This document shows positions 18,234 to 36,709 of a stretch of 64,000 bases of DNA, piece by piece. Both the position numbers and the translations under genes were made by a program. Within the stretch, counting starts at the first letter, position 1. Each line of letters begins with the position of its first letter. Origin of the DNA: a gamma proteobacterium symbiont of Ctena orbiculata (GTDB lineage Bacteria > Pseudomonadota > Gammaproteobacteria > Chromatiales > Chromatiaceae). The stretch covers positions 1-64,000 of the forward strand of contig QBVC01000019.1 of NCBI GenBank assembly GCA_003058495.1, written 5' to 3'. The notes beneath the pieces are model-generated. The model saw nothing but the letters and a program-made list of their open reading frames with translations. It searched no databases and had not been told where the DNA came from.

Positions 18234-19403
18234 TCACCCGCCGGTGAGGACTCTGATGACAGAGATTACGGCATCCACTTTCTGCTCATCCATTGCGGGA
18301 CCTGTCGGCATCACGATCACCCGATCGGAGACCTTTTCACTGTTGACGAGGAAGCGGCCGGCGTTCGGATAGAGCTCCAGATAGGGTTTTAATCGGTGGC
18401 ACCCGGGCCAGAAATAGCGCCTGGCCAGAACATTTTCTGCTTGCAGGGCAGCCACGATCTCGTCCCGTGCCACCCCCGATTTTTCATCGACCTCAAGCAC
18501 GATGTACTGATAGTTGTTTGTTTCATTCTCGTCATACTCGAGCAGGCGCACTGATGCAACCCCTTCCAGGGATCTGCGATAGGCGTGGTAGATATGGCGA
18601 TTATGTTCGATTACATGTTCAATGGATTGCAGGTTGGCCAATCCCATGGCGGCCGATATCTCATTCATCTTTCCGTTGGTGCCTGGATGTATGACGTTGT
18701 CGACACCGCAAAAACCGAAGTTGCGCATCAATCTCATCGCTTCGGCAAGCTCATCGTCATTGGTCAGGACCGCGCCGCCCTCCAGGGTATGGAAAAACTT
18801 GGTGGCGTGAAAGCTCAATATTTCACAGCTGCCGAAACTACCGATCCTGGTTCCGCCCTGGCTGGCGCCGAATGCATGGGCCGCATCGAACATAAGCTTG
18901 AGGTTGTGCTCGTCGGCAATCGCCTGCAGTTCATCCACAGGCGCCGGGCGCCCCCATAGATGTACCCCGATAATACCCGTGGTGCGTGGCGTGATCATGC
19001 GTCGCACCGCATCGGGATCGAGGTTATGGGTACGGGGATCGATGTCGGCGAATACCGGGGTGATCGCCTGCCAATGGAGCGCATGGGCGGTGGCGACAAA
19101 GGTATACGAGGGAATGATTACCTCGCCCTGCAGCTGCAGTGCGCGAATTGCTATTTCCAGGGAGACCGTACCGCTGCACATCGCCACACAGTGGCTGACA
19201 TCATGGTATTCGGCGATACGCTGTTCGAGGGTCTGGACCAGCGGCCCGTTGTTGGTGAGCCACTGGCGGTCCAGGATCTCTTCCGTATAGTGTAGAAACA
19301 GCTCGCGATCACCGACCGTGGGAAGCCCGACATGGAGCGGCTCAGAAAACGCCGGCTCGGCACCATTGACGGCTAGATCACGGGAAGAGTTAATCTGTTT
19401 CAT
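18234..19403 (-). CDS. DegT/DnrJ/EryC1/StrS family aminotransferase
   Basis: This 389-residue PLP enzyme of the sugar aminotransferase family has the active-site lysine in SFHATKFFHTLEGGAV at about 188-203 and an upstream block VAMCSGTVSLEIAI. Family members aminate keto-sugars, mostly nucleotide-linked 4-keto or 3-keto hexoses, in surface glycan or antibiotic synthesis. No sugar epimerase or dehydratase gene is present in the window to name the substrate. It converges with the sulfotransferase gene (24 bp apart) and marks the right end of the tailoring cluster. Confidence 0.88.
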   Translation of the reverse strand: MKQINSSRDLAVNGAEPAFSEPLHVGLPTVGDRELFLHYTEEILDRQWLTNNGPLVQTLEQRIAEYHDVSHCVAMCSGTVSLEIAIRALQLQGEVIIPSYTFVATAHALHWQAITPVFADIDPRTHNLDPDAVRRMITPRTTGIIGVHLWGRPAPVDELQAIADEHNLKLMFDAAHAFGASQGGTRIGSFGSCEILSFHATKFFHTLEGGAVLTNDDELAEAMRLMRNFGFCGVDNVIHPGTNGKMNEISAAMGLANLQSIEHVIEHNRHIYHAYRRSLEGVASVRLLEYDENETNNYQYIVLEVDEKSGVARDEIVAALQAENVLARRYFWPGCHRLKPYLELYPNAGRFLVNSEKVSDRVIVMPTGPAMDEQKVDAVISVIRVLTGG

Positions 19404-19441: not shown

Positions 19442-20008
19442 TTACTTGTTCATCATCTCTTCGAGGTCGCGCACCATGTATCTGGCGGCGCGCAGCCATG
19501 CCTGCTCATTGTCGCCTCTGAAGTCGTAAGCCTTGCTGATCAGCGTCTGCTCACTCGTCACATCCTTGACCTCGATGTGCATGGTCAACACGAGAATGCT
19601 CATCTTATAGATCCAACCGGTCATTACCTTGTCACCCTCCACCTGCTTGGCCAGATCATATTCACATCGATTGCAGGTGCGTATATAGGTGCCCAACTGT
19701 GCTGCATTGACCATGTCATTGACTTCGGTTTGCGCGACCACATCGAAAATGCCCTCTTCGTCGATCTTGTGAGAGATGAACTCGGTGAGCTTTTTGAGCA
19801 TTTCCTGATTGCGTTCGACGCCGCCGGGCACCGGTGTGTTATCGACAATCTCAAACGGAAGCACGACCAGTGTTTCATTTTGTATCGCAACTGCCGCCGC
19901 AGGCGAGGCCGCGAGCGTTGTTACGAGCATGAGTCTCATGAGGATTTCGAAGCGAAGATTGACAGCGCTGTCAATCGCTCTCAAAAGGTAAAACATATAC
20001 GCGCTCAC
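19442..20008 (-). CDS. DUF2380/DUF3280-like exported protein
   Basis: This 188-residue protein has an N-terminal hydrophobic segment (about residues 24-41, LMRLMLVTTLAASPAAAVA), so it is probably secreted or anchored. It is followed by a domain that reads NETLVVLPFEIVDN and ends in a helical tail. I recognise the pattern as DUF2380-like, a family often found near PQQ-dependent alcohol oxidation genes; this is from memory. The GTG start at 20008 has an excellent Shine-Dalgarno (GGAGG, 7 bp away), better than internal ATGs at 19939 or 19930. Two cysteines (RTCNRCEYD) could form a disulfide. Confidence 0.65.
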   Translation of the reverse strand: MSAYMFYLLRAIDSAVNLRFEILMRLMLVTTLAASPAAAVAIQNETLVVLPFEIVDNTPVPGGVERNQEMLKKLTEFISHKIDEEGIFDVVAQTEVNDMVNAAQLGTYIRTCNRCEYDLAKQVEGDKVMTGWIYKMSILVLTMHIEVKDVTSEQTLISKAYDFRGDNEQAWLRAARYMVRDLEEMMNK

Positions 20009-20551: not shown

Positions 20552-21499
20552 TCAGGGTGGGCTATTGCTCTCTATCACCTTGATATACTCATCGGTCGCC
20601 TCCCGGTCGCTACCTATGACGATACGAAGATGGCCCAGAGCCGAGACCTCCAACTGGCCCCGAATCTCCACCTGCTCGCCCCGCTCCGCCTGACCCAGAT
20701 AGGTGGCGGTGTAGCTGACGGCCTCCTTGACTGAGGGGTGTCGCAACAGGTAACGGGCGGGATAGTCGAAGCTGTGCCCGTCATCGGCGATGCCGACCTG
20801 CAGGCTGCAGCTGTGAAGTTTCCGATAGTGCAACAGGTCTTGCCACTGTTCCGGGGTAATGAGCGAGATATCGAACTTCGTTCCCTCGATGGCGGCCTTG
20901 TTGTATTTACGCGCCTCATGCCAGCGATATTCATCCAATGTCAGGGAACAGCCGCGCCGCTCATAGGCATCATGCCAGAGGCTCTCATTCAAGGCTTGCA
21001 GCAGGTGTTGTTGCAGCAGGCGTTTGACTATCTCCCTGGCCATGCGGAAGCTATCGGGACAGTAGAAGAGCAGGTCGATATCGGATCCACTGTTTTGAGC
21101 CCCGACCAGCAGGGAGCCGGTGACGCCCAACACGCTTGTGTCGAGCCCCTGCGCGGCGAACAGGCCAACCAGGCGCTGCAGTTTCTCCTCGATCCCGTCG
21201 CATGGAGCGCGAACAAGGATCTCCTTCAATCGCTTGCGCGGTTGATGGTGAATCCTGACCAGATCACGGTGGACGCCATGCAGTGTCACATCCCTTGCCC
21301 GGGAGTAGTGGATGTAGTCTGGGTAGTGATTCTTCAGCAGCTCATCGGCATTCCGGGTGGAGAGCTTCTGACATCCCCCGGGGATTCGCCGATAGCGCAG
21401 GAACGAGAGTACCCGTTGATCTTCCGGGTCCGCCGCCACCACCGCAAAGATCAGGCCCTCGGCGGTTTCGATGAAATCCTTGGGCTGATAGCCGCTCAA
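20552..21499 (-). CDS. Nucleotidyltransferase-fold protein of the H4MPT island
   Basis: This 315-residue protein has an N-terminal segment YQPKDFIETAEGLIFAVV and a nucleotidyltransferase-fold core. The core motif GSLLVGAQNSGSDIDLLFY (about 150-168) has the G-S and paired aspartates that bind metal and nucleotide. The substrate is not known. TTG at 21499 overlaps the stop of the upstream decarboxylase gene (TTGA) and gives the expected N-terminus; a GTG at 21556 is a possible longer start. It is the last gene of the minus-strand operon running from the PTPS gene at 25953, so it is co-expressed with methylofuran and H4MPT synthesis genes. Confidence 0.7.
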   Translation of the reverse strand: MSGYQPKDFIETAEGLIFAVVAADPEDQRVLSFLRYRRIPGGCQKLSTRNADELLKNHYPDYIHYSRARDVTLHGVHRDLVRIHHQPRKRLKEILVRAPCDGIEEKLQRLVGLFAAQGLDTSVLGVTGSLLVGAQNSGSDIDLLFYCPDSFRMAREIVKRLLQQHLLQALNESLWHDAYERRGCSLTLDEYRWHEARKYNKAAIEGTKFDISLITPEQWQDLLHYRKLHSCSLQVGIADDGHSFDYPARYLLRHPSVKEAVSYTATYLGQAERGEQVEIRGQLEVSALGHLRIVIGSDREATDEYIKVIESNSPP

Positions 21500-22740
21500 T
21501 CCACCTGTCCCGCGCCAGGTTTCGGTTGCCGATGCCTGGTCCCGGACTCGCTCCACTGCCTGCGGTAGTCGTCATAGCCGTATGCCTTCAGCAGAATCGA
21601 GTCGCCGTTCCCATCGAGGCAGTAGATCGAGGGCAGGTTGTGTCCGTTGAAACGGGTGGCCTTTGCCAGCGTGTAGGCGCCGACGTTGGTGAACACCAGG
21701 CGGTCGTCGATCTCCAAAGGCCGTGAAAAACGGTATTCACCGAAGAGGTCGCCGCTGAGACAGGTTGAACCCGCGAGGATGGTGGCGTGGTTTCCATCGC
21801 CCTCTTCGTTCAGCAGCCGGGGTGGTCTCTGATACTCGAACACCTCCGGCAGGTGGTTGACCGAGGTGTCGAGCACGGCGATCGATTTGCCATCGCTTTC
21901 GAAGCGGTCGATCACGCTCGCCACGAGCATAACCGCATCGTCAACCACTGCACTGCCGGGCTCCAGATAGACCAGGGCGCCCCACTCTCTCCGGATATGA
22001 TCGATGACCCTGAAGAGCGTCCGCAGATCATCTGACGCTTGGAACAGGTAGCCGCCCCCCAGATTCACCCATTCGACTTCAGCGACCAACCCGGGCAGAT
22101 GGGCCTCCAGATGGGCCGTGGTCCGTTGCAGCGGCTCGAAGGAACTCGAGCCGAAATTGGTGTGCAGATGGAGGCCGCTGAGGCCCCTTGCCGCGAGCCG
22201 TCCCGAACGCCATTGGGCCGCCACCTGGGGCAGGGGCGCGCCAAGTTTGGAGTGGAAACGGCAGGGATCATATCGGGGATCCTCGAGGAAGGAGAGCTGG
22301 GGATTGATCCGCAACCCCGCCTTGGCCCGCCCCCCAAGCAGCGGTGCGAGGCGTTGCAGCTGGTTCAGGGAATTGAAGCTCACGGTTTCGCAGAGCCCGG
22401 CGATCTCCGCCATCTCTTCACGCCGCAGACCCGGGGTGGTGATATGCAGGCCGCCGGCCCCCGCCAACACCTCATGGGCCAATCTCGCCTCGAACAGGGA
22501 ACTGACCGAAAAGCCGTCCAGCAGGCCGGGCATCCGTTGCAGCAGGCCGGTGAAGGGACATGCCTTGATCGAATAGAGCATCCGGCAGCCGCTGACCGAT
22601 CCGATTTCGTTCATCAGATCGAGATTGTGCGCCAGCCGTTTCTCGTCAAGGATGAAACCGGGGGTTTCCGGAACCGCATCGAACCAGGCCTGCCGATCGG
22701 GCGATATCTGCTGCAGAACGGCACAGGGATTGAGTGACAT
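21496..22740 (-). CDS. Carboxynorspermidine decarboxylase-like PLP enzyme (fold type III)
   Basis: This 414-residue protein has the hallmarks of alanine racemase-fold decarboxylases: the PLP lysine in LYSIKACPF (about 60), HLHTNFG, the glycine loop NLGGGYLF, YLEPGSAVV, STCLSGDLFGEY with the active-site cysteine, and VGAYTLAKATRFNG. The closest known family is NspC, which makes norspermidine or spermidine from carboxylated precursors. The usual partner, carboxyspermidine synthase, is absent from the window. Instead the gene lies in an operon with mfnB, DUF447, DUF6513 and PTPS genes. A role in making the amine of methylofuran is therefore possible, but not shown. Confidence 0.8.
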   Translation of the reverse strand: MSLNPCAVLQQISPDRQAWFDAVPETPGFILDEKRLAHNLDLMNEIGSVSGCRMLYSIKACPFTGLLQRMPGLLDGFSVSSLFEARLAHEVLAGAGGLHITTPGLRREEMAEIAGLCETVSFNSLNQLQRLAPLLGGRAKAGLRINPQLSFLEDPRYDPCRFHSKLGAPLPQVAAQWRSGRLAARGLSGLHLHTNFGSSSFEPLQRTTAHLEAHLPGLVAEVEWVNLGGGYLFQASDDLRTLFRVIDHIRREWGALVYLEPGSAVVDDAVMLVASVIDRFESDGKSIAVLDTSVNHLPEVFEYQRPPRLLNEEGDGNHATILAGSTCLSGDLFGEYRFSRPLEIDDRLVFTNVGAYTLAKATRFNGHNLPSIYCLDGNGDSILLKAYGYDDYRRQWSESGTRHRQPKPGAGQVD

Positions 22741-22743
22741 GGA

Positions 22744-23454
22744 CTAGCCTCCCGCAGCCGCCCGCCCGGCCCGCTCCCTCGAGCGGGTGAGTGCTTCGCG
22801 CACTTCGAGCAGCCGATGGGGCGCGATTCGGGCGATTCGCTCGCTGCGTTCACACAGCGCGCCGCGGAATCCCAGGTAGTCGGGCGCCAATGGGACGAGC
22901 CGGGGGATATCCTCCTGCCGCAGGGAACCGGCAAGACCGTTGAGCATCCCCAGGGCCCTGGCTTGGGCAACGAAATCCCCGAGCCTCGACAACTCGATCC
23001 GCGTAAGCAGCCCTCCTCCACCCTTGGCGGCAGTGTCGAGCATGATGCCGCGAAAGCCGGCGTCTGCAAACTCGCCCAATCGCGCAAGGGGTGGATCGAG
23101 GTCCGCGAAAAGAACGGCGACAACGGCGCAATCCTCGCAAAGGCCGGCGATGGCCTGCAGGCAGGCGGTCAGGTTGTGGGTGGAGAAAAAGCCCACCTTG
23201 ATGTAGTCGACGCCGCTCTCCGCGGTCTGTCGAATGGCGCCTGCAAGCTGCAGCGGCTCGGCCGGCAGATCGCCCACCGTCGCGCTCACCGGGCAGCGTC
23301 CGGCGCAGCGCGCCACCAGGTTGTGAATCTGCGCCAGGGGCAGTGCCCCGAGGGCCCCTGTTCGGGGCTCTTTCAGATCGATGATATCCACCCCGGCTTC
23401 GACGGCGAGTTCCAGTTCCCGGTCATTGGTCACGCTGGCCAGCAGCTTGGTCAC
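22744..23454 (-). CDS. mfnB: (5-formylfuran-3-yl)methyl phosphate synthase MfnB (DUF556)
   Basis: MfnB makes the furan ring precursor of methanofuran or methylofuran from two glyceraldehyde 3-phosphates. The 236-residue TIM-barrel protein has the DUF556 pattern: LLASVTNDRELELAVEAGVD, IDLKEPRTGALGAL, CPVSATVGDLPAEP, DYIKVGFF and FRGIMLDTAAK. The lysines in DLKEP, YIKVG and TAAK match the family active-site positions. The GTG start at 23454 overlaps the DUF447 stop (GTGA), fixing the start. The C-terminus (GRAAAGG) lies 3 bp before the decarboxylase gene. Confidence 0.9.
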   Translation of the reverse strand: MTKLLASVTNDRELELAVEAGVDIIDLKEPRTGALGALPLAQIHNLVARCAGRCPVSATVGDLPAEPLQLAGAIRQTAESGVDYIKVGFFSTHNLTACLQAIAGLCEDCAVVAVLFADLDPPLARLGEFADAGFRGIMLDTAAKGGGGLLTRIELSRLGDFVAQARALGMLNGLAGSLRQEDIPRLVPLAPDYLGFRGALCERSERIARIAPHRLLEVREALTRSRERAGRAAAGG

Positions 23455-24026
23455 ACCGCGCCCTCCCTCGCCTGTTGCCTGCGGAAGTCGTCGACCCGCG
23501 CCATCAGCCACGCCCAGGCCTCCCGCTCGCGCTCCCCGGCCGTCTTGTCGACGGCGATGGTCAGGTAGGCGATTTCGCTTTCGATCTTCTCCGGCGGCAG
23601 CCGCCCGAGCCGGCTCACCAGAATCGCCAGCTCCAGCACCGCCGCCTGGGCCCGGTTGAATCCCCGGAATGGCCGGTGGTTGGCCTCGTGGATCGGCTGA
23701 CAGACAAGCCGGGGACGCAGCGGGTCCTCTTCCACTCGCCGCAGACGCACCTCGCAATGGGCGAGGGCCTCGGCGAGTCGCGGCGCGGCTACCTGATCCG
23801 CTTCGACCAGGGGCCAGTCGTAGCGTCCCGTGAGACAGCCGGCGAAAACCCGAACATCGTCGCAGTAGTTGATCACCGCGCACTCCCCGGCGAGGATGCT
23901 GTCCAGGGTCCGCGAGGGACGGAAGGGTGCGATCACCAGATCCCCTCCCCGCCAGACCACCCCCATGGGGGCGATCTGATTCTCCCCTTGCGGGTTGCGA
24001 CAGGTGACGATGACTTCGTGGATCAT
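23451..24026 (-). CDS. DUF447 family protein of the H4MPT-linked C1 pathway
   Basis: This 191-residue protein begins MIHEVIVTCRNPQGENQIAPMGV and continues with blocks FRPSRTLDSILAGECAVINYCDDVRVFAGCLTG, as in DUF447. The fold is expected to be a flavin-reductase-like split barrel. The family occurs almost only in methanogens and in bacteria with the H4MPT pathway. Its reaction is unknown. It overlaps both neighbours by 4 bp, so expression is tightly coupled to DUF6513 and mfnB. Confidence 0.85.
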   Translation of the reverse strand: MIHEVIVTCRNPQGENQIAPMGVVWRGGDLVIAPFRPSRTLDSILAGECAVINYCDDVRVFAGCLTGRYDWPLVEADQVAAPRLAEALAHCEVRLRRVEEDPLRPRLVCQPIHEANHRPFRGFNRAQAAVLELAILVSRLGRLPPEKIESEIAYLTIAVDKTAGEREREAWAWLMARVDDFRRQQAREGAV

Positions 24027-25414
24027 GGGCTTTTCCTTGTTTTCGTGGTGCCCGGCGCATCCTGGCGGTTCAAATCCTTCTCCGCCTCGGGCAGGGCCGA
24101 GCCCCAGCGCAGCGGCTGGTCCTGTACATAGCGTTTCCCCAACTGATGGGCGATCTGGGCACGGGCCAGTTCCACCCCCAGGTAGAAGGCGTGACCGCCG
24201 TCGTCCTCGACACCCAGTTCCGGGAAGAAATCGAAGGGATCGTCATGGCTGAGGAGACCATCCCGGTTGTAGAGGTGGATACCCTCGTCGCTGACCTGGA
24301 TCCTGAAATTGGGATCGCGGATCTCGGCGGCCAGCTCGCCGATCTCGGCAAGGCTATAGGGAAAGGGTTTTATCTCATGCAGGGCGGCGAGCCCGCTGTC
24401 GACCTGTTTCGGCAGGGTCTTCTCCCGGCGTGCCCAGTACATGATGCGGCGTGCCGCATCCGCCTCGCGTACGGCGCTGCGGCAGTGGCTGCTGACCTGG
24501 GTGGTGAGGATGTTGGTGATGCCAAGCTCCGAGATGACGCCCATCATCACCGCGTTGATGCCCGTGGTGTCCGCCTCGGTTAGCTCCGTGATATTGCCCA
24601 CACCCATCATGATCTCGGCCTGTGGCCGTTTTTTTCGCAGGGCCTGGTAGCGCAGTATGGAGTCGGTGAAACCGAAGTGGATGGGATCGAGGATGGGGTC
24701 GGCAATATAGCCGCGCCCCTTCTCCTCGAACGCCTCCATGCAACGAAGGAGCGAGTCCAGATCGCCCGGCGTGGCGGGTATCAACACCGGGGTTGACGCC
24801 ACCTCGTCCGCGATCCATAGGTTATCCTCGTGCAGGCTGAGGAGGTAATCCGCCCCGGCCCTGCCCCCGCTCAACAGCTCCTCGCTGTTCATCGAATCGA
24901 CGCTGACCCGATAGCCCGCCTCCCGGAGGGCGTTGACGCTCTGGGCAAGATGGGGGAAAGGGGTTTCCGGCAGACAGCCGAGATCGATGACGTCGGCGCC
25001 GTCGGCAGCGTAGGCCGCGGCACGCTCCAGGATCCCATCGACGCTGAGATTGGGGGCGTCGACGATCTCGGCGAATATCCGCACGTCGTAGCCGTCCAGG
25101 TCGGGCGCCATCCCCTCCTTGCCGAAAAAGCGCGGCAGATCCATCAGCTCCTCCGGGCCCCGCTCCACCGGGATACCGAAGTGTTGGCTGAGCCCATTCA
25201 GGTCGCCGCGGCAGCGGCCGGGTACCAGGATCCTTTCCGCATCGCCGTAGTCGTTGAGACGGCGCTTGATCATCTCGGCGGTCATCAGCGCCGCCACCTT
25301 GAGGCCGAGATTGTGCACCCGCCACTCGAACTCCTCGGCGGCCATCTCCTGCAGCACCCGGGTCAGCTGCTTTTCAGCCAGCGACCCGGTAAGGAAAAGG
25401 ATCTTTTCAACCAC
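24023..25414 (-). CDS. DUF6513 dihydropteroate synthase-like protein, H4MPT biosynthesis
   Basis: This 463-residue protein has an N-terminal domain beginning KILFLTGSLAEKQLTRVL. It is followed by a dihydropteroate synthase-like TIM barrel with blocks ADVIDLGCLPETPFPHL, SVDSMNSEELLSGGRAGADY and MMGVGNITELTEADTTGINA. The archaeal counterpart is proposed to couple the pterin and the aryl-amine ribose unit in methanopterin synthesis. The gene lies 26 bp after the PTPS gene and overlaps DUF447. The substrate would be the product of MptG, encoded at 38758-39771. Confidence 0.85.
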   Translation of the reverse strand: MVEKILFLTGSLAEKQLTRVLQEMAAEEFEWRVHNLGLKVAALMTAEMIKRRLNDYGDAERILVPGRCRGDLNGLSQHFGIPVERGPEELMDLPRFFGKEGMAPDLDGYDVRIFAEIVDAPNLSVDGILERAAAYAADGADVIDLGCLPETPFPHLAQSVNALREAGYRVSVDSMNSEELLSGGRAGADYLLSLHEDNLWIADEVASTPVLIPATPGDLDSLLRCMEAFEEKGRGYIADPILDPIHFGFTDSILRYQALRKKRPQAEIMMGVGNITELTEADTTGINAVMMGVISELGITNILTTQVSSHCRSAVREADAARRIMYWARREKTLPKQVDSGLAALHEIKPFPYSLAEIGELAAEIRDPNFRIQVSDEGIHLYNRDGLLSHDDPFDFFPELGVEDDGGHAFYLGVELARAQIAHQLGKRYVQDQPLRWGSALPEAEKDLNRQDAPGTTKTRKSP

Positions 25415-25440: not shown

Positions 25441-25953
25441 TCAATCCCCGCCGCTATCTATCTCTCGCCGGCAGATGCCCCATTGATGGTCTGCCTCCTC
25501 CACGGCCACCTCGAGGCTCTTCACATGGATAAGGGCCGAATCCGCTGCCAGCTTCGGCAGCAGGGATTCCATGACATACCAGGCCAGCATCTCCGCCGTG
25601 GTATTGGCCACCGGCAGCACCAGGCAGTTGCTCGCCGGGAGGGTGAAACGCTTGTCATAGCTCGAGACTTCCATCCGGTCACCTGCCTGCTCGATCGCCA
25701 CCTCCTCACTCTCGCCGGGTAAGAGTATCTTGTCGTGAAGCTCATGGCAGATCTCGGCGGCCAGCCGGTTCAGCAGCACGAAGTCGATCACGAAGGCGTC
25801 GCTGTTGTTGTCGCCGTAGGCCTGGATGCGGAGGTGAAAGTTGTGGCCGTGCAGATTCTCGCAGCTGTTGTCGAAGGTGATGAAATGCGCCGAGTTGAAA
25901 TGCAACTCCCCCGGGTAGACATTGACCGCGAATGTTTGAGCGTTGTTTTGCAA
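25441..25953 (-). CDS. 6-pyruvoyl-tetrahydropterin synthase/QueD-like protein with intact zinc site
   Basis: PTPS-fold enzymes make or cleave the side chain of dihydroneopterin-type substrates; here a step in the pterin half of H4MPT is likely. The protein (about 170 residues) has all three zinc histidines, in HFNSAHFITF and CENLHGHNFHL, with the catalytic cysteine in between. TTG at 25953 is preferred because GGAG lies 7 bp upstream. An ATG at 26052 extends the frame but has no ribosome site and adds residues unlike the family. It is the first gene of the minus-strand operon ending at the nucleotidyltransferase. Confidence 0.85.
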   Translation of the reverse strand: MQNNAQTFAVNVYPGELHFNSAHFITFDNSCENLHGHNFHLRIQAYGDNNSDAFVIDFVLLNRLAAEICHELHDKILLPGESEEVAIEQAGDRMEVSSYDKRFTLPASNCLVLPVANTTAEMLAWYVMESLLPKLAADSALIHVKSLEVAVEEADHQWGICRREIDSGGD

Positions 25954-26345
25954 GGAGTGGCTCCATCTGTTGTTGGTATCTGTATGCCATGATGCAGGTC
26001 CAGCAAGTATCCTGGGGCGTCCGCTGAGCGTCAACCCGCGCTTAATGTCCATGCAAATTTGGCTCCAACCCCTATTTCCACCGGTCTTCGGGGAGCGATG
26101 GTCGTTGAAGTCGTTTATAGAAGCCTGCTAATCGCGTCAAACAGGGCGATCAGATCATTCGTATTCATGAATCCCGCTGAGACAGGATCTGAACAAGGGA
26201 CATGTGTGTCAACAAAGTGTGACAGCGAAGGGGGTGTGATGTATGGATTGGCAGGCCCGGGATCAGAGATTGAAGGCTGGGATTTCCCGCGCCGGATCGT
26301 TGTGGCTGAGGCGGGGCCTAGGCCCCGCCATGGGATTACGCCTGA
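25954..26345. other. Upstream region of the PTPS-mfnB operon
   Basis: The 392-bp stretch has no convincing gene. It holds an imperfect inverted repeat, TGTCA-N8-TGACA, at 26207-26224, resembling the GTGTCA-type repeats seen in other intergenic regions of the island. No clear -35/-10 pair was identified. The operon promoter for the PTPS gene must lie here, or within the DUF6647-like gene upstream. Confidence 0.4.
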
Positions 26346-27153: not shown

Positions 27154-27762
27154 CTAGGTTGTGACAATCTCGGTGGCAAGCGAGGCGTCGCCCTGATGCA
27201 GCGCCGGGAAACGGCCGTGTTCGCCGGCGGAGAGCACCCAGGCACGAATCGGGGTTTGTCGCAGGTAGGCGCCGAACTGACTGTCGATCATGCCGCTCTC
27301 TTCAAGCTCGGCAACAGCGATCCTGGCGCCCTGGAGGGGTGCCGATTTCACCAGCAGCAGTCTACCGATGCCGAGTTCGCCGCAGAGCCACACCGCCAGG
27401 GAGTCGGACGTCACCTCCCAGCTATGCTCGATTGCGGACTCGGCCATGACCATGGCTGACGGCAGCCACACCGGGGTTTCGCCCCTTGCCAGCACCTCGG
27501 CGACTTGGGATCGGCTGGCGACGGCACGCAATCCCGGCTGCACGCCACAGACCATTCTACCGAACTGCTCCATGGCTAGCAGCGCCATGTTATGGGCGGA
27601 TGATTGATCGAACCGCCAACGCCGCTGCGCCCTGCGGACCTGATCGGCGAACGGGCCGCCGCCGGGAACGATGACCGTCGAGCCGGCCTGAGCCAGGAGC
27701 GCCAGCCAGTTACTCAGGTGGTCCGAATCGAAGAGACTGCCACCGAGCTTGACTACCCACAT
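27154..27762 (-). CDS. Amino-acid-kinase-fold protein, MfnE-like
   Basis: This 202-residue protein has the amino acid kinase fold: the N-terminal VVKLGGSLFDS loop (phosphate binding), VIVPGGGPFADQVR, and a later DSLAVWLCGELGIGRLLLVK segment. In methanogens MfnE phosphorylates the aminomethyl-furan phosphate intermediate of methanofuran. Bacterial H4MPT clusters contain a homologue, proposed to do the same for methylofuran. It overlaps pabB by 10 bp at the end of the operon that starts with the MfnD-like ligase at 31187. The MfnE assignment is by context and fold. Confidence 0.75.
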   Translation of the reverse strand: MWVVKLGGSLFDSDHLSNWLALLAQAGSTVIVPGGGPFADQVRRAQRRWRFDQSSAHNMALLAMEQFGRMVCGVQPGLRAVASRSQVAEVLARGETPVWLPSAMVMAESAIEHSWEVTSDSLAVWLCGELGIGRLLLVKSAPLQGARIAVAELEESGMIDSQFGAYLRQTPIRAWVLSAGEHGRFPALHQGDASLATEIVTT

Positions 27763-29147
27763 CGCTCACTGTTCATCTGTTCCATCCGCTGCAGCAGATC
27801 GAGAAGGGCGGAGGCCTTGTGATAGGTCTCGCGATACTCCGCCTCGGGATCGGAATCGGCCACTATGCCCCCGCCCGCCCAGAGGCGGGTTATGCCGTCG
27901 GAGTGCACCAGGGTGCGTATGGCGATATTGCTGTCCATGTCGCCGTTAAAACCGATGTAGCCGATGGCGCCGCAGTAGATGCCTCGGCGATGGGGCTCGA
28001 GCTCCTCGATGATCTCCATCGAGCGCAGCTTCGGCGCCCCGGTGATCGATCCGCCGGGGAAGCAGGCACGCAGCAGAGAGAGCGCGTCCTTGCCCGGCGC
28101 CAGGGTCCCTTGTACCTTGCTTACCAGATGATGCACACGGGCGTAGCTCTCCAGTTTGAACAGCTCCGGCACCTCCACGCTGCCGGTGGCGCAGACCTTC
28201 CCCAGGTCGTTGCGCAGCAGATCGACGATCATCAGGTTCTCCGCCTGATCCTTGGGGCTGTTTTTCAGCATCTCGGCGAGCATCATGTCCTCCATCGGAT
28301 CCTCGCCCCGGGGTGCGGTTCCCTTGATCGGCCTGGTCTCCACCAAACCGTCGCGAACCTGGAGGAAGCGTTCAGGGGAAGTGCTCAACACCTGGCAGTG
28401 GGGTGTGTTCATGTAGGCGGCAAAGGGTGCCGCATTGAGCTGGCGCAGCAGGCTGTAGGCATGCCAGGGATCACCCTCGGCGACGGCGGAGAAACGTTGC
28501 GCGAAATTGACCTGGTAGCAGTCGCCATCGAGGATGTAGCGCTTTATCCTTGCGATGGATGCAAGATACTCCTCCTTGGTCATGTTCGAACAGACCTCGC
28601 CGAGGACCCGATAGCCGCCTGCCGGCCGGTTTTTGGCGGACCGGTCCGCGGCCCGCAGCAGGCGCCTGCGGTAGCGCTCGAGACGCGCGGGATTCTCGCC
28701 GACCAACCAGCTTCGCTGCGCCTGATGATCCACCACCAATGACCAGTCGTGGATGCCGATGGCCATATCCGGCAGTTGTTCCATGTCCTCGGCGAGACTG
28801 GGCAGGCGTTCGATACGCCGCCCCAGGTCATAGCCGAAATAGCCTATCGCGCCACCGCAAAAGGGAATCCCGTCGATGCCATCGGCGATCGGCCCAAGGG
28901 CCTCGCGCAGGAGCTGGAAGGGATCTTCCGCCGAGAGCCTCACGGTGCCGTCCCTTCGCTGGATCCGGGTCTGTTCGCCACGGGTGACAAGAACGCAGTC
29001 GGGGTCCGCGGAGATGATATCGTAGCGTCCCTGTTCGCTGTGGGGGCGGCCGCTGTCGAGAAAGGCCGCCCAGGGCTGATGGGCCAGGGCCTCGAATAGC
29101 TGCGCGCTGTCCTCCCGGTAGGGAAAATCGATCGCCACCGCACTCAT
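27753..29147 (-). CDS. pabB: Aminodeoxychorismate synthase component I (PabB)
   Basis: PabB converts chorismate and ammonia to 4-amino-4-deoxychorismate, the precursor of p-aminobenzoate for folate and for the aryl group of H4MPT. The 464-residue protein has the family blocks PIKGTAPRGEDPMED, LMIVDLLRNDLGKVC, GGSITGAPKLRSMEII and IYCGAIGYIGF. The start at 29147 overlaps the upstream stop (ATGA) and excludes a non-homologous extension. The amidotransferase (PabA) and lyase (PabC) are not in the window. The position inside the methylofuran/H4MPT operon suggests a copy dedicated to this cofactor. Confidence 0.93.
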   Translation of the reverse strand: MSAVAIDFPYREDSAQLFEALAHQPWAAFLDSGRPHSEQGRYDIISADPDCVLVTRGEQTRIQRRDGTVRLSAEDPFQLLREALGPIADGIDGIPFCGGAIGYFGYDLGRRIERLPSLAEDMEQLPDMAIGIHDWSLVVDHQAQRSWLVGENPARLERYRRRLLRAADRSAKNRPAGGYRVLGEVCSNMTKEEYLASIARIKRYILDGDCYQVNFAQRFSAVAEGDPWHAYSLLRQLNAAPFAAYMNTPHCQVLSTSPERFLQVRDGLVETRPIKGTAPRGEDPMEDMMLAEMLKNSPKDQAENLMIVDLLRNDLGKVCATGSVEVPELFKLESYARVHHLVSKVQGTLAPGKDALSLLRACFPGGSITGAPKLRSMEIIEELEPHRRGIYCGAIGYIGFNGDMDSNIAIRTLVHSDGITRLWAGGGIVADSDPEAEYRETYHKASALLDLLQRMEQMNSERCG

Positions 29148-30199
29148 CCCGCATGCTCCTTGGCCAGACTGGCTACCGCCACCGCCGGCGCACACTCGGC
29201 CGCTTTCGACCCCATGGGCCTGGCATACTCGAACAGGGTTTCGAATCCGACATAGGGCCTTCCCAGGCGGCGGCAGATGCGCTCCACCAGAAAACGCCCG
29301 ACACCGGCACCCACCAGCGGAGCGGCCTCCGAGAGCCCGGGCCTGCTCAGAACACGTTCACAGGCATCCATCACCAGGCGCAGCTGCTGTTCCGCGATAA
29401 AGCGCGAGACCCCTCGCCAGCCGCCGAGATCGGCGGCATCGAGATCCAGCCCCAGCATGCGCGCCAATCTGCGCGCGCTGCCGATCTGGCTCTTTTCGCC
29501 ATTGTCCGCGCTCGGCAGCAGATCGGCGCCATCGGGCAGGTCGCCGTTCAGCCGATAGATATCCGCGGTGGTTGCAAAATGCTCAGCCATCAAATAAACC
29601 CATTCTCCTGCAAAAGGGACCTTGTCGGTGATCGCCATCAACGGCGTACGTACAATACCTGTATAGATCAGGGATTGACCGCGCAAGCGCTGATGGTCGC
29701 TATAGTCGCATGTCAGCACCTGCTTGTCTGCGAAGGGTATCAGGTCGGTCGTGGTGCTTCCCACGTCGACCAGAAGCCCCTCCCGCAGGCATCCGGCGGC
29801 CCAGGATGCCGATGCAAGCCAGTTGGCCGACGCCACCCGGAACACCTGATTCGCCGCGCTGTGCGGATGCAGAAAACCCGCCGGGCCGCCGTAGATGGCC
29901 AGCTCCGCCCGGGGGAAACGGCGGCTCATCGCATCGATAAGCGCCCTCACCCCGGTGGCGCGGTCGGGAAACAGATCGACCAGCTCTCCCGTCATGGTGA
30001 CCGCATGCCTTAGACCGCTGTCGCCGCCGATTTTCTCCAGCACCGAATCGATGCCCGCATCGAGCCTATCGAGGCCCTGCCACAAGGGACAGGGTATCTG
30101 TACCACGGAACCCACCCTTCCACGGCTGTCGACCAGGGCCGCCTTGGTGTGGGCGCCGCCGAGATCCCATCCCAATATTGCATCATGCGGCACCGGCAT
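29144..30199 (-). CDS. Hydantoinase/oxoprolinase-like H4MPT-linked C1 pathway protein, MfnF-like
   Basis: This 351-residue protein has an ASKHA-type N-terminus (ILGWDLGGAHTKAALVD) and GLLVDVGSTTTDLIPF, both phosphate-binding loops of the hydantoinase/oxoprolinase-related family. The archaeal relative MfnF joins the aminomethylfuran unit to the glutamyl-tyramine part of methanofuran. It overlaps the ATP-grasp gene upstream by 17 bp and pabB downstream by 4 bp. The likely role is the coupling step of methylofuran synthesis; the exact acceptor in this organism is unknown. Confidence 0.85.
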   Translation of the reverse strand: MPVPHDAILGWDLGGAHTKAALVDSRGRVGSVVQIPCPLWQGLDRLDAGIDSVLEKIGGDSGLRHAVTMTGELVDLFPDRATGVRALIDAMSRRFPRAELAIYGGPAGFLHPHSAANQVFRVASANWLASASWAAGCLREGLLVDVGSTTTDLIPFADKQVLTCDYSDHQRLRGQSLIYTGIVRTPLMAITDKVPFAGEWVYLMAEHFATTADIYRLNGDLPDGADLLPSADNGEKSQIGSARRLARMLGLDLDAADLGGWRGVSRFIAEQQLRLVMDACERVLSRPGLSEAAPLVGAGVGRFLVERICRRLGRPYVGFETLFEYARPMGSKAAECAPAVAVASLAKEHAG

Positions 30200-31187
30200 A
30201 CTCCAGATTCACGTCCACCACCGATGCCTTCAGTATCTGCCGCGGCAGAGGCGCGCGCTCCTCAAGCAGATCGAGTACCAGGGCAGCGGGATTGATTCCG
30301 GTGGACTCCTTCAGACCGACATAGGAGGTGGTTATCCTGGGATTGACCTCCAGCACGCGCAAGCCATCCTTGGTATCGATGATATCCACGCCTATGATAC
30401 CCCAGAGGTCGGGCAGCGCGGCCACCACCTCACGGCCGATCTTAAGAAAGCGGGCCCGATGTTTCAAATGGCCGTTGACCACGCAGCCGAGCAGCACAAA
30501 TCCATAGTCGGTCATCGCGATTCGCTGATGGTTGACGCTCAACACCAGGGCCTCGCCGTTGCAGGCCAATATGTTCAGACTGGTCGGCGTGCCGTGAACG
30601 AAGGGTTGGATCACATACTCGCTATTCTTGGGCAATGCCTCAAATTGCTGACAGAGATCATCCCGGTCGCGGCAGATCCTTATCCCTTGACAGCCGACCC
30701 CGTCATCCGGTTTCACCACCCAGCTTCCGTTGTGATCGGGCACCCCATCCTCGAACCGGTAGGTCGGCACCACGGAGATACCCTGCGCCTGTAAGCGATT
30801 TGTCGTCGCCAGCTTGCTCGATGTGGTCTGCACCGCTCGAGGCGGGCTGTTCAGCAGCACCTTTCCCTGGCTGATCACCGCTTCGCTGATGTGCTGCAGC
30901 ACATTGGAAAACTCGGGGGCGACGGGCCAAACCGCATCCGCGGCTTCCATGCATGCCTGCCATGCGAGGGGAAAATCCTCCAGGTTGTGAAGCATATGAC
31001 ACACCACCGGCAGTTCAAGCTCGCTCAACCTTGCGTCGCGGGTTGTATGGACTTCAACCCCGTCGATCTCGGCAAGATCGGAAATCAACGCCTTGAGCAT
31101 AATATCCCCCTCTTCCGAGAGAGACGGAGGCAAGGGGCTGTCCAGCATCCCTCCCCCCGTAATATACTCAAACACAAAGATTCTCAT
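30183..31187 (-). CDS. ATP-grasp ligase of the H4MPT island, MfnD-like
   Basis: This 334-residue protein begins MRIFVFEYITGGGM and has an ATP-grasp domain (WVVKPDDGVGCQGIRI, YVIQPFVHGTPTSLNIL, IDTKDGLRVLEVNPRITTSY). Archaeal MfnD ligates glutamate to tyramine in methanofuran synthesis. Bacterial methylofuran is reported to contain tyrosine and glutamates, so a related amide ligation is likely. It heads the operon with mfnF-like, pabB and mfnE-like genes. Its start codon is only 18 bp from that of the divergent hisA-like gene. Confidence 0.82.
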   Translation of the reverse strand: MRIFVFEYITGGGMLDSPLPPSLSEEGDIMLKALISDLAEIDGVEVHTTRDARLSELELPVVCHMLHNLEDFPLAWQACMEAADAVWPVAPEFSNVLQHISEAVISQGKVLLNSPPRAVQTTSSKLATTNRLQAQGISVVPTYRFEDGVPDHNGSWVVKPDDGVGCQGIRICRDRDDLCQQFEALPKNSEYVIQPFVHGTPTSLNILACNGEALVLSVNHQRIAMTDYGFVLLGCVVNGHLKHRARFLKIGREVVAALPDLWGIIGVDIIDTKDGLRVLEVNPRITTSYVGLKESTGINPAALVLDLLEERAPLPRQILKASVVDVNLEYAGAA

Positions 31188-34833: not shown

Positions 34834-35738
34834 CAGATCACCTCCGTCAGTGGAGTGAAATGAGTGCAGGAGAGGAAATCGTCCACCAACATCCAGGTCA
34901 GATCCAGATGGGTGACCCGCTGCAGTCCTCTCCAGGCCGGAATGCTGTTTACCTCGATGACATAGGGCCGGCCCCTGTCGTCGCGAAGGATGTCGACCCC
35001 GGCATAGTTCATCTCCAGCACATCCGCGGCGGCTTCCGCCAGTTCCCGCAACTCCTTTTCGAGCACCGCCGGATGACAGCGTGCGCCCTGTGCGACGTTG
35101 CTGATCCAGCCCCTCCCCCGGCGCAACATGGTGGCCACTGCCCGGCCGTTGATCACGAAGACACGCCAGTCATGGGCATCCTCCGAGCCGGTGGAGATAA
35201 AGCGCTGCAGGTAGTAGATGCCGTTGTAGAGGGCCTGCGCCGGCAGGCTGTCGCCGTCAGCGATCCGCAGCAGTCCGTTACCCTGGGAACCGAACAGGGG
35301 TTTCACCACCAATTCATGACCCGCACTGAACTCCTGCATCAGTATCTGGGTGGGATCCTGCTCCCCCAGCACCCAGGTTGGGGGCGTTGGTATGCCGGCA
35401 TCGTGCAGCAGAAAACTGGTCATGCCTTTATCCACGCTGCGCTCGATGGCCCGCGCATCGTTGTAGACACAGACACCGAGATGCTTCAGGGCGTGCAGGA
35501 TATCCAGATAGTGCACTACCTGTTCGAGGGAGCCGCCAGGCACGCCGCGCACGAATGCGCCATCGGGAAGGGTATCGAATCCCGCAATCCTCAGGCCCCG
35601 GCCTTCACCGTTGATTTCAAATCCGCACTGCTGCAGCGAGACAAACTCGCTGCTGCAGCCATGGGCCTCGATGGCCTCTTGCAGGCGCGCGCCGTGCCAG
35701 CCGGGATCGTCGGTGAAGATGGCGATGCGTCTGCTCAT
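34833..35738 (-). CDS. RimK-like ATP-grasp glutamate ligase
   Basis: This 301-residue protein has the RimK/MptN ATP-grasp layout: [15 protein letters not shown] at the start, [16 protein letters not shown] for nucleotide binding, and IDVLRDDRG-like YAGVDILRD with [14 protein letters not shown] for metal binding. The archaeal relative MptN adds glutamate to H4MPT. Here it may extend the side chain of H4MPT or of methylofuran. The gene overlaps both neighbours (mch by 4 bp, CitG-like by 1 bp). Confidence 0.85.
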
Positions 35739-36709
35739 GGCCCGATTCCGAATGAGGTTGTCAGCAGCGCGGTGTCGAGGCCGCCAGCCGAGTAGCTGTT
35801 GCCGCTGTCGAGGGCGCTGACCATGACCCGTGCGGGACTGAAAAGCATGGGATCGATCTTGAAGAAGTCGTAGTCATAGGCCTTGAATATCTCGCCGAAG
35901 GGACGGCCATAGTCCCGGGAGGCGCTGCTCGGCAGATCCCCTGCCAGCTTCTGCGCCTGGGCATCCTCCCCGCTGACGAAGAGCTGTACCTGACCGGCGA
36001 AGAGGATGGCATCGTTGGTGCGCCCCATCGCGGCCAGGAGATCGGGGGCCGGCGGCGGCAGCGGCGCGCTGCCGATGCCGTCCCGGATCGAGTGGAGATC
36101 GAAACCCAGTTCATGGGCCTTGTGCATGGCGACTTCAAGTACCCGGGCGACAATCTGCACGGTACCGGCGAGACTGCTGGTGGGGGTAAGAATCAGGGTC
36201 AACTCCTTCAGGTCAACGGCGCAATCCCTGGCGATCTTCTCGCACAGGGGCGGCGGCGGAAGGCGATCGACCTCCAGTACCAGACAGGTCCGTCGGGCGC
36301 GGTCCTGATAGTCCAGCTCCTTGAACAGGGGCTCCTTCAGCGATAACGCCCGGCCGGGCCCGGACCCCAATGCGTTGAAGCCCTTTTTCCCCTCTTCCTT
36401 GTGGGACAGGCTCCAGCCCGCGTATTGACTGCCCAGGCAGGCGAGCACGGGATCGGCGGTATGCACATGGACCGAAAGCGGCCAACCGGCAACCGGTCCG
36501 CTGCCGCTCAGGCTGACGCTACCGAGTCCGCCGAGGCAGATCTCCGCAATGCGCCGCCCCGCCTCCAGCGAGCCTGGCGCCTGGATTCCCGCATCCACCA
36601 GAAGGCAGCCGTTCTCCAGGCGCTCCACCCCGAGGCGCAGCATCTCGGCGTCGGCGATCAGGGATTCCACCAGCGGGGCGGCCAGGGCGTTGACGCTGGG
36701 ACGACTCAT
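35735..36709 (-). CDS. mch: Methenyl-H4MPT cyclohydrolase Mch
   Basis: Mch hydrolyses methenyl-H4MPT to N5-formyl-H4MPT. The 324-residue protein has the family's N-terminal [19 protein letters not shown] and [20 protein letters not shown] blocks, and a C-terminal [21 protein letters not shown] segment. The length fits. It is coupled on both sides by 4-bp overlaps in the fae-mtdB operon. All pathway enzymes from formaldehyde to formate are thus encoded within 33-45 kb. Confidence 0.95.

Follow-up and report, generated by a model that had tools for sequence, protein, structure and literature searches.

The window analysed here is a stretch of 64,000 nucleotides (contig QBVC01000019.1) from a gammaproteobacterial symbiont of Ctena orbiculata. 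It contains genes for a PLP-dependent decarboxylase and a Pol-beta-type nucleotidyltransferase, which overlap by 4 nt on the minus strand (Table 1). The decarboxylase gene lies 3 nt behind mfnB, and every junction from DUF6513 to the nucleotidyltransferase is a gap or overlap of 3-4 nt (4-nt overlaps for MfnB-DUF447 and DUF447-DUF6513, with the MfnB start chosen by us). A preliminary description of this DNA had reported the two genes as an overlapping pair that runs together with mfnB, DUF447, DUF6513 and PTPS. Both reading frames were found where it had placed them, and the common strand and tight junctions agree with that arrangement.

Table 1 Predicted genes of the decarboxylase operon and the mch marker gene in the window
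Feature	Position	Strand	Basis or remark
Pol-beta-type nucleotidyltransferase, 315 aa	20552..21499	-	behind MfnB with or without the decarboxylase
Decarboxylase, 414 aa	21496..22740	-	predicted fold III PLP decarboxylase of group A (see text)
MfnB, 4-HFC-P synthase	22744..23454	-	PF04476; start chosen by us
DUF447 protein	23451..24026	-	Pfam
DUF6513 protein	24023..25414	-	TIGR00284-like, 195 bits (cut-off 257)
PTPS-family protein	25441..26052	-	profile match
DUF6647-like protein, 135 aa	26346..26753	-	between PTPS and MfnE
MfnE-like kinase	27154..27762	-	78 bits (cut-off 300)
PabB, aminodeoxychorismate synthase component I	27753..29147	-	TIGR00553, above cut-off
MfnF-like, H4MPT-linked C1 protein	29144..30199	-	TIGR03123, above cut-off
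MfnD-like ATP-grasp ligase	30183..31187	-	70 bits (cut-off 400)
Mch, methenyl-H4MPT cyclohydrolase	35735..36709	-	TIGR03120, 403 bits (cut-off 229); co-occurrence marker

Upstream of the decarboxylase, the genes follow in the order of Table 1 from MfnB to the MfnD-like ligase. Beyond the ligase, genes that scored above their curated cut-offs encode Mch, a beta-RFAP synthase family protein, FhcA, FhcD, FhcC and a PQQ alcohol dehydrogenase. Further genes of the cluster are presumably those for MtdB, FhcB, PQQ synthesis and XoxF. The 135-aa DUF6647-like protein was seen in eight other genomes of the genus, at 84-97% identity. Downstream of the nucleotidyltransferase is a PF11684 (DUF2380/DUF3280) protein (19442-20008, minus strand), which is also found downstream in the 11 other genus genomes that have the nucleotidyltransferase (in G012 on a separate contig piece). 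A sugar-type aminotransferase (18234-19403, minus strand; DesI-like, 478 bits, cut-off 650) is near the operon in six other genus genomes. Bacterial MfnC has no assigned gene, but the neighbours of this aminotransferase resemble surface sugar genes. Genes for XoxF, PQQ and H4MPT have been reported together in some Thiodiazotropha species, which are lucinid-clam symbionts, in the consulted parts of two studies (PMC8307296, PMC6712303).

Judged by its Pfam matches and conserved residues, the decarboxylase is an alanine-racemase-fold (AR-fold, fold III) PLP decarboxylase. PF00278 (44 bits) and PF02784 (23.7 bits, cut-off 23.4) both matched above cut-off. K59, E260, C327 and Y356 were invariant across 35 aligned rows; we take these to be residues of the PLP chemistry, including the PLP lysine and the catalytic Cys. 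The gene is under purifying selection, with dN/dS of 0.16-0.19 in three of six pairs (the remaining three were saturated). PF00282, the MfnA-type family, was not among the Pfam matches of the protein, and a search at E 0.001 found no PF00282 match in any of the 22 genus genomes, that of the window included. The nucleotidyltransferase matched PF01909 weakly (18.3 bits, cut-off 21). All 12 orthologues scanned matched this family at E up to 1 (best 3.4e-5) and share an invariant GS...DxD motif, and a profile of the nucleotidyltransferase matched no solved structure at E 1.

Twelve of the 22 genus genomes, the window genome among them, encode the nucleotidyltransferase. In all 12 it lies beside MfnB-DUF447-DUF6513-PTPS, leaving aside an intact or lost decarboxylase, and mch was found in all six of those tested (G000, G006, G010, G011, G016 and G021). 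The MfnE-to-MfnD part lay outside the fetched stretch in G001, G003 and G012. An intact decarboxylase stands between MfnB and the nucleotidyltransferase in four of the 12 (G000, G011, G016 and G021). G006 retains approximately the first 48 codons of the gene, and a stretch of G013 matches the end of the G011 decarboxylase (85% over 81 nt) and extends slightly beyond it into the following gene. Matches at the junction were weak in G004 and G020 (36 nt) and shorter in G010. The G006 and G013 remnants look like deletion relics. Because of these relics and the junction matches, the decarboxylase was probably present in an ancestor and lost several times, with the nucleotidyltransferase kept.

The preliminary description had proposed that the nucleotidyltransferase could activate the product of the decarboxylase. 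Since it is kept without an intact decarboxylase in eight of 12 genomes, it is probably not a partner of that enzyme, and such a role is unlikely. We also rejected a fusion of the two proteins in G016 and G021, suggested by a 764-aa open frame: the two matches lie 9 nt apart and belong to separate genes. G036, an mch genome from a different family, likewise encodes the nucleotidyltransferase (43% identity), on another contig than its mfn cluster. The gene may itself be linked to H4MPT.

We searched 369 genomes of the class with a profile of eight group-A and related sequences (E 1e-40). The matches fell into two clear score groups, namely group A, which comprises 15 genomes at 467-648 bits, and an NspC-like group of 22 genomes at 272-323 bits. 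The genomes are a sample drawn from a larger group, taken to be the same set in the group-A, mch and MfnA-like searches (equal settings, size and handles), and three of the 15 group-A genomes had contributed to the profile. As the sole H4MPT marker we used mch. The marker was present in 14 of the 15 group-A genomes, as against 48 of 369 overall (Fisher p 8.5e-13, with kinship not fully corrected), and the sole miss is a genome that is 75% complete (G042). Counted by genus, it was present in 10 of 11 (p 2.7e-9, kinship again not fully corrected). The 14 positive genomes are spread over eight families, and the count rises to 18 of 19 when the relic G006 and three additional genus genomes are included. 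Of the genomes classed as NspC-like by score, only 1/22 carried mch. A family-level test assumed 182 families, which is an upper bound, and we relied on the genome and genus tests.

Class-wide co-occurrence and location together support the link of group A to the methylofuran/H4MPT genes that the preliminary description had drawn from the operon. It had also proposed a search for the gene pair in other H4MPT bacteria: the decarboxylase tracks mch there, and in the genus its pairing with the nucleotidyltransferase holds in four of the 12 genomes that have the latter gene.

Outside the genus, only one of the 14 group-A loci adjoins C1 genes. In this genome of another family (G282, L088:7431-12481), group A comes directly after a 5-FTHF cyclo-ligase gene. 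On the other strand, it adjoins two tandem genes of what we take to be the MtdB family, with 53-54% identity to that of the window. In stretches of 3-20 kb at the other 13 loci, the only matches to the window's H4MPT genes were weak ones, to PTPS at two loci and to radical-SAM at two. Relatives of the decarboxylase in Rhodospirillaceae and SAR202 MAGs directly adjoin a DUF3326 gene (L063:9956-12497 and L064:9482-11939), possibly as part of a separate pathway.

The top NCBIfam model of the decarboxylase was nspC (TIGR01047), at 262 bits under a cut-off of 409, and its closest solved structures belong to the carboxy(nor)spermidine decarboxylase family (PDB 9eaf, 3n29, 3mt1 and 36gy). It shares with NspC the fold, the PLP residues and a Cys-x-x-Gly-Asp loop, and is approximately 31-36% identical to NspC types. 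A plasmid collection gave 97 records, all below 60% identity to the decarboxylase, and the 20 rows listed fell at 31-36%, in the NspC range. Three other group-A members scored 253-280 bits with TIGR01047, whereas the NspC of G008 reached 502 bits and adjoins a gene with carboxynorspermidine synthase as its top model (418 bits, cut-off 800). With this G008 gene as query, itself under the synthase cut-off, no carboxynorspermidine synthase was matched at E 0.001 in the window genome (a 99% complete assembly), in keeping with the earlier remark that the NspC partner is missing. The window genome also gave no second match to the nspC model. Among 19 group-A or relic genomes, the synthase query matched four, strongly only in the congener G011 (923 bits, against 21-37 in the others). 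G011 has both a group-A gene and a separate NspC-like gene, which adjoins the synthase-like gene.

Phylogenetic analysis (40 rows, at least 60 bits each, duplicates dropped) joined the 18 NspC-like sequences into a single group with a long branch (100/100). On the other side lay every one of the 18 group-A rows, together with the two MAG relatives and two outgroup rows. The outgroup rows were too long, which leaves the tree effectively unrooted, and group A requires three changes on the tree as drawn. Our claim is therefore limited to the separation of group A from the NspC rows that the alignment-based tree shows, and does not extend to monophyly.

We compared residues across 17 of the 18 group-A rows (G021, a near copy of G016, was dropped), the two MAG rows and 16 of the 18 NspC-like rows (L012 and L060 dropped). 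Fifteen alignment columns split the two groups nearly cleanly. Tyr231 (16 of 17 group-A rows) takes the place of a His found in all 16 NspC-like rows, and Glu299 (16 of 17) that of an Asp found in all 16. Every group-A row has a one-residue deletion before His296. Group A further has Tyr303 for Met, Gln304 (15/17) for Pro, and Ala355 for the His of 15 of the 16 NspC-like rows. Read from the alignment, the differing sites appear to line the active-site pocket. Glu299 would correspond to D272 of the C. jejuni carboxyspermidine decarboxylase if our inferred 36-residue offset of the solved chain is correct; D272 is named for substrate binding in the consulted part of PMC7857480. The sub-cut-off score, the synthase not found in the genome, the H4MPT link and the Glu at the predicted substrate-binding Asp all bear out the earlier view of an NspC-like enzyme that is not a typical polyamine NspC.

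MfnA (TIGR03812, PF00282) resembles the window decarboxylase in the reaction and pathway that we propose below, and an MfnA-like gene stands in the mfn operon of one family. The two enzymes have unrelated folds, fold I for MfnA and fold III for the window decarboxylase. In that family (f3: G036, G193 and G396, all mch genomes), MfnD-MfnF-PabB-MfnE is followed directly by the MfnA-like PF00282 gene, and group A is absent. Its top model was MfnA in G036 and G396 and diaminobutyrate decarboxylase in G193, always under cut-off; G193 also has an NspC-like gene. The MfnA-like query had no match in the mch/mfn clusters of six of the 14 mch-positive group-A genomes, those whose clusters were examined (one stretch ends before mfnE). 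Four of the 14 do match it, at 55-68 bits.

Thirty-four of the 48 mch genomes have no group A. At E 1e-5, the MfnA-like query matched 14 of these 34 and did not match the other 20; in these 20, therefore, decarboxylation is either not required or done otherwise. G274 and G089, from two families, have a PF00282 gene near the H4MPT cluster, approximately 15 and 20 kb from mch, where it adjoins a dihydropteroate synthase gene (L149:17098-19531 and L151:2487-4916). The synthase passed its model cut-off in G274, and we take the neighbour in G089 to be the same gene. The best model of both PF00282 proteins was diaminobutyrate decarboxylase, far under cut-off. Strict complementarity between group A and PF00282 was not found: it fits the MfnA-like genes of f3, G274 and G089. 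The pattern is compatible with alternative decarboxylases and does not form a clean either-or.

As a point of general enzymology, PLP decarboxylases need a free alpha-amino group; in glutamyl-tyrosine the tyrosine amine is acylated, and this compound is therefore an unlikely substrate. To our knowledge, no fold III decarboxylase acts on aromatic amino acids. Methylofuran with tyrosine has been reported from M. extorquens, M. radiotolerans and M. album (PMC8141765, in the consulted parts, as for all statements taken from it). The tyramine form, MYFR-tyramine, was found in six of nine strains in that study, so the premise of the preliminary description that bacterial methylofuran contains only tyrosine is not supported. 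BLAST searches by the authors found no MfnA in three of these six strains, for which they suggest tyrosine decarboxylases not yet known or a different precursor (PMC8141765). M. extorquens, a producer of MYFR-tyrosine, incorporates tyramine that is supplied to it (PMC8141765). Loss of the carboxyl is not expected to matter much for methylofuran function (PMC8141765), and the repeated loss of the decarboxylase in the genus fits that expectation.

We infer the substrate, product and step of the enzyme as follows. H4MPT-linked group A would remove the carboxyl of free L-tyrosine to give tyramine for incorporation into methylofuran by the MfnD-like ligase and MfnF, which would yield MYFR-tyramine. 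Group A would thus be a non-homologous, fold III replacement of the fold I MfnA. We hold this reading tentatively, at a little short of an even chance. Group A is a natural candidate for the tyramine source because it lies behind mfnB in a genus without MfnA and the set tracks H4MPT. The position behind mfnB in four genus genomes (at 3 nt in the window) supports this, with mfn neighbours not seen in the other group-A stretches. Free tyrosine is the simplest substrate, and a furan-tyrosine core the bolder option. The earlier idea of a new methylofuran variant stands in part: the decarboxylase is a candidate for the amine supply, but the predicted product is probably an already known form, and the enzyme that makes it new.

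Several observations run against tyramine formation by group A. The acidic specificity residue, as placed by alignment, could point to a basic substrate, and M. album, the gammaproteobacterial methanotroph tested, makes MYFR-tyrosine (PMC8141765). Group A is absent from those 34 mch genomes, and no intact copy remains in the eight nucleotidyltransferase genomes of the genus noted above. The 13 outside loci without H4MPT neighbours, the four group-A genomes that match the MfnA-like query, and the DUF3326 neighbours of the MAG relatives, which fall on the group-A side of the tree, also weigh against it.

It is rather unlikely that the enzyme instead makes an amine for another molecule of H4MPT methylotrophs, such as a lanthanide chelator or a pterin side product. 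Such a role would suit a co-occurrence scored with mch in place of methylofuran genes, as well as the position of most copies outside the genus, away from mfn genes. The AR-fold enzymes FigC/FslC, SbnH, AcsE, MccE and BtrK act outside polyamine metabolism, some AR-fold enzymes serving siderophores, and set a precedent for special substrates; in the consulted part of PMC7857480, they cluster with diaminopimelate decarboxylases and apart from NspC types, and their substrates differ. The location behind mfnB in the window genus argues for methylofuran, as does the MfnA-like gene in a matching operon where group A is absent.

Decarboxylation could also follow furan joining, with O-(aminomethylfuranylmethyl)-tyrosine (MYFR-Glu0) as substrate before the first glutamate, which we consider quite unlikely. 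Like carboxynorspermidine, this molecule combines a free alpha-amine with a primary amine at its distal end, and Glu299 would keep an acidic residue at the D272 site of carboxyspermidine decarboxylase (PMC7857480, consulted part). MYFR-Glu0 has been detected in a mutant, and the authors do not decide whether furan addition comes first (PMC8141765). Archaeal MfnD, however, takes only tyramine in vitro, and the pathway they propose adds the first glutamate before the furan (PMC8141765); the pocket argument itself comes from sequence comparison. A wider version of this idea, which we find decidedly improbable, is that group A would be a second, independently evolved methylofuran decarboxylase acting on the furan-tyrosine core. 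An NspC-like ancestor would have been recruited because the distal amine of the core mimics carboxynorspermidine, and repeated loss would switch between tyramine- and tyrosine-methylofuran.

We regard as very doubtful a decarboxylase of a basic amino acid, serving polyamine metabolism and merely located in the operon. Many fold III decarboxylases use basic amino acids and the acidic specificity residue is kept, but the position following the catalytic Cys is occupied by Leu in 14 of 17 group-A rows and by Lys in three, not by the Asp of ODC, ADC and DAPDC, and co-occurrence with mch is strong. A true carboxynorspermidine/carboxyspermidine decarboxylase is extremely improbable: the nearest solved structures belong to that family, but group A lies under the model cut-off that the synthase-linked G008 NspC passes, G011 keeps a separate NspC-like gene beside its strong synthase match, and both tree side and specificity residues differ.

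Among the matches listed, we found no published account of a group-A enzyme in the open literature. Our results suggest that group-A genes would be misnamed if called carboxynorspermidine decarboxylase. The three strains that make tyramine-methylofuran without MfnA are unexplained in the consulted parts of PMC8141765, and the tyramine-forming role proposed for group A makes it a concrete candidate that can be tested in some of the H4MPT bacteria. Group A also offers a case in which gaining or losing a single gene may change the structure of a coenzyme.
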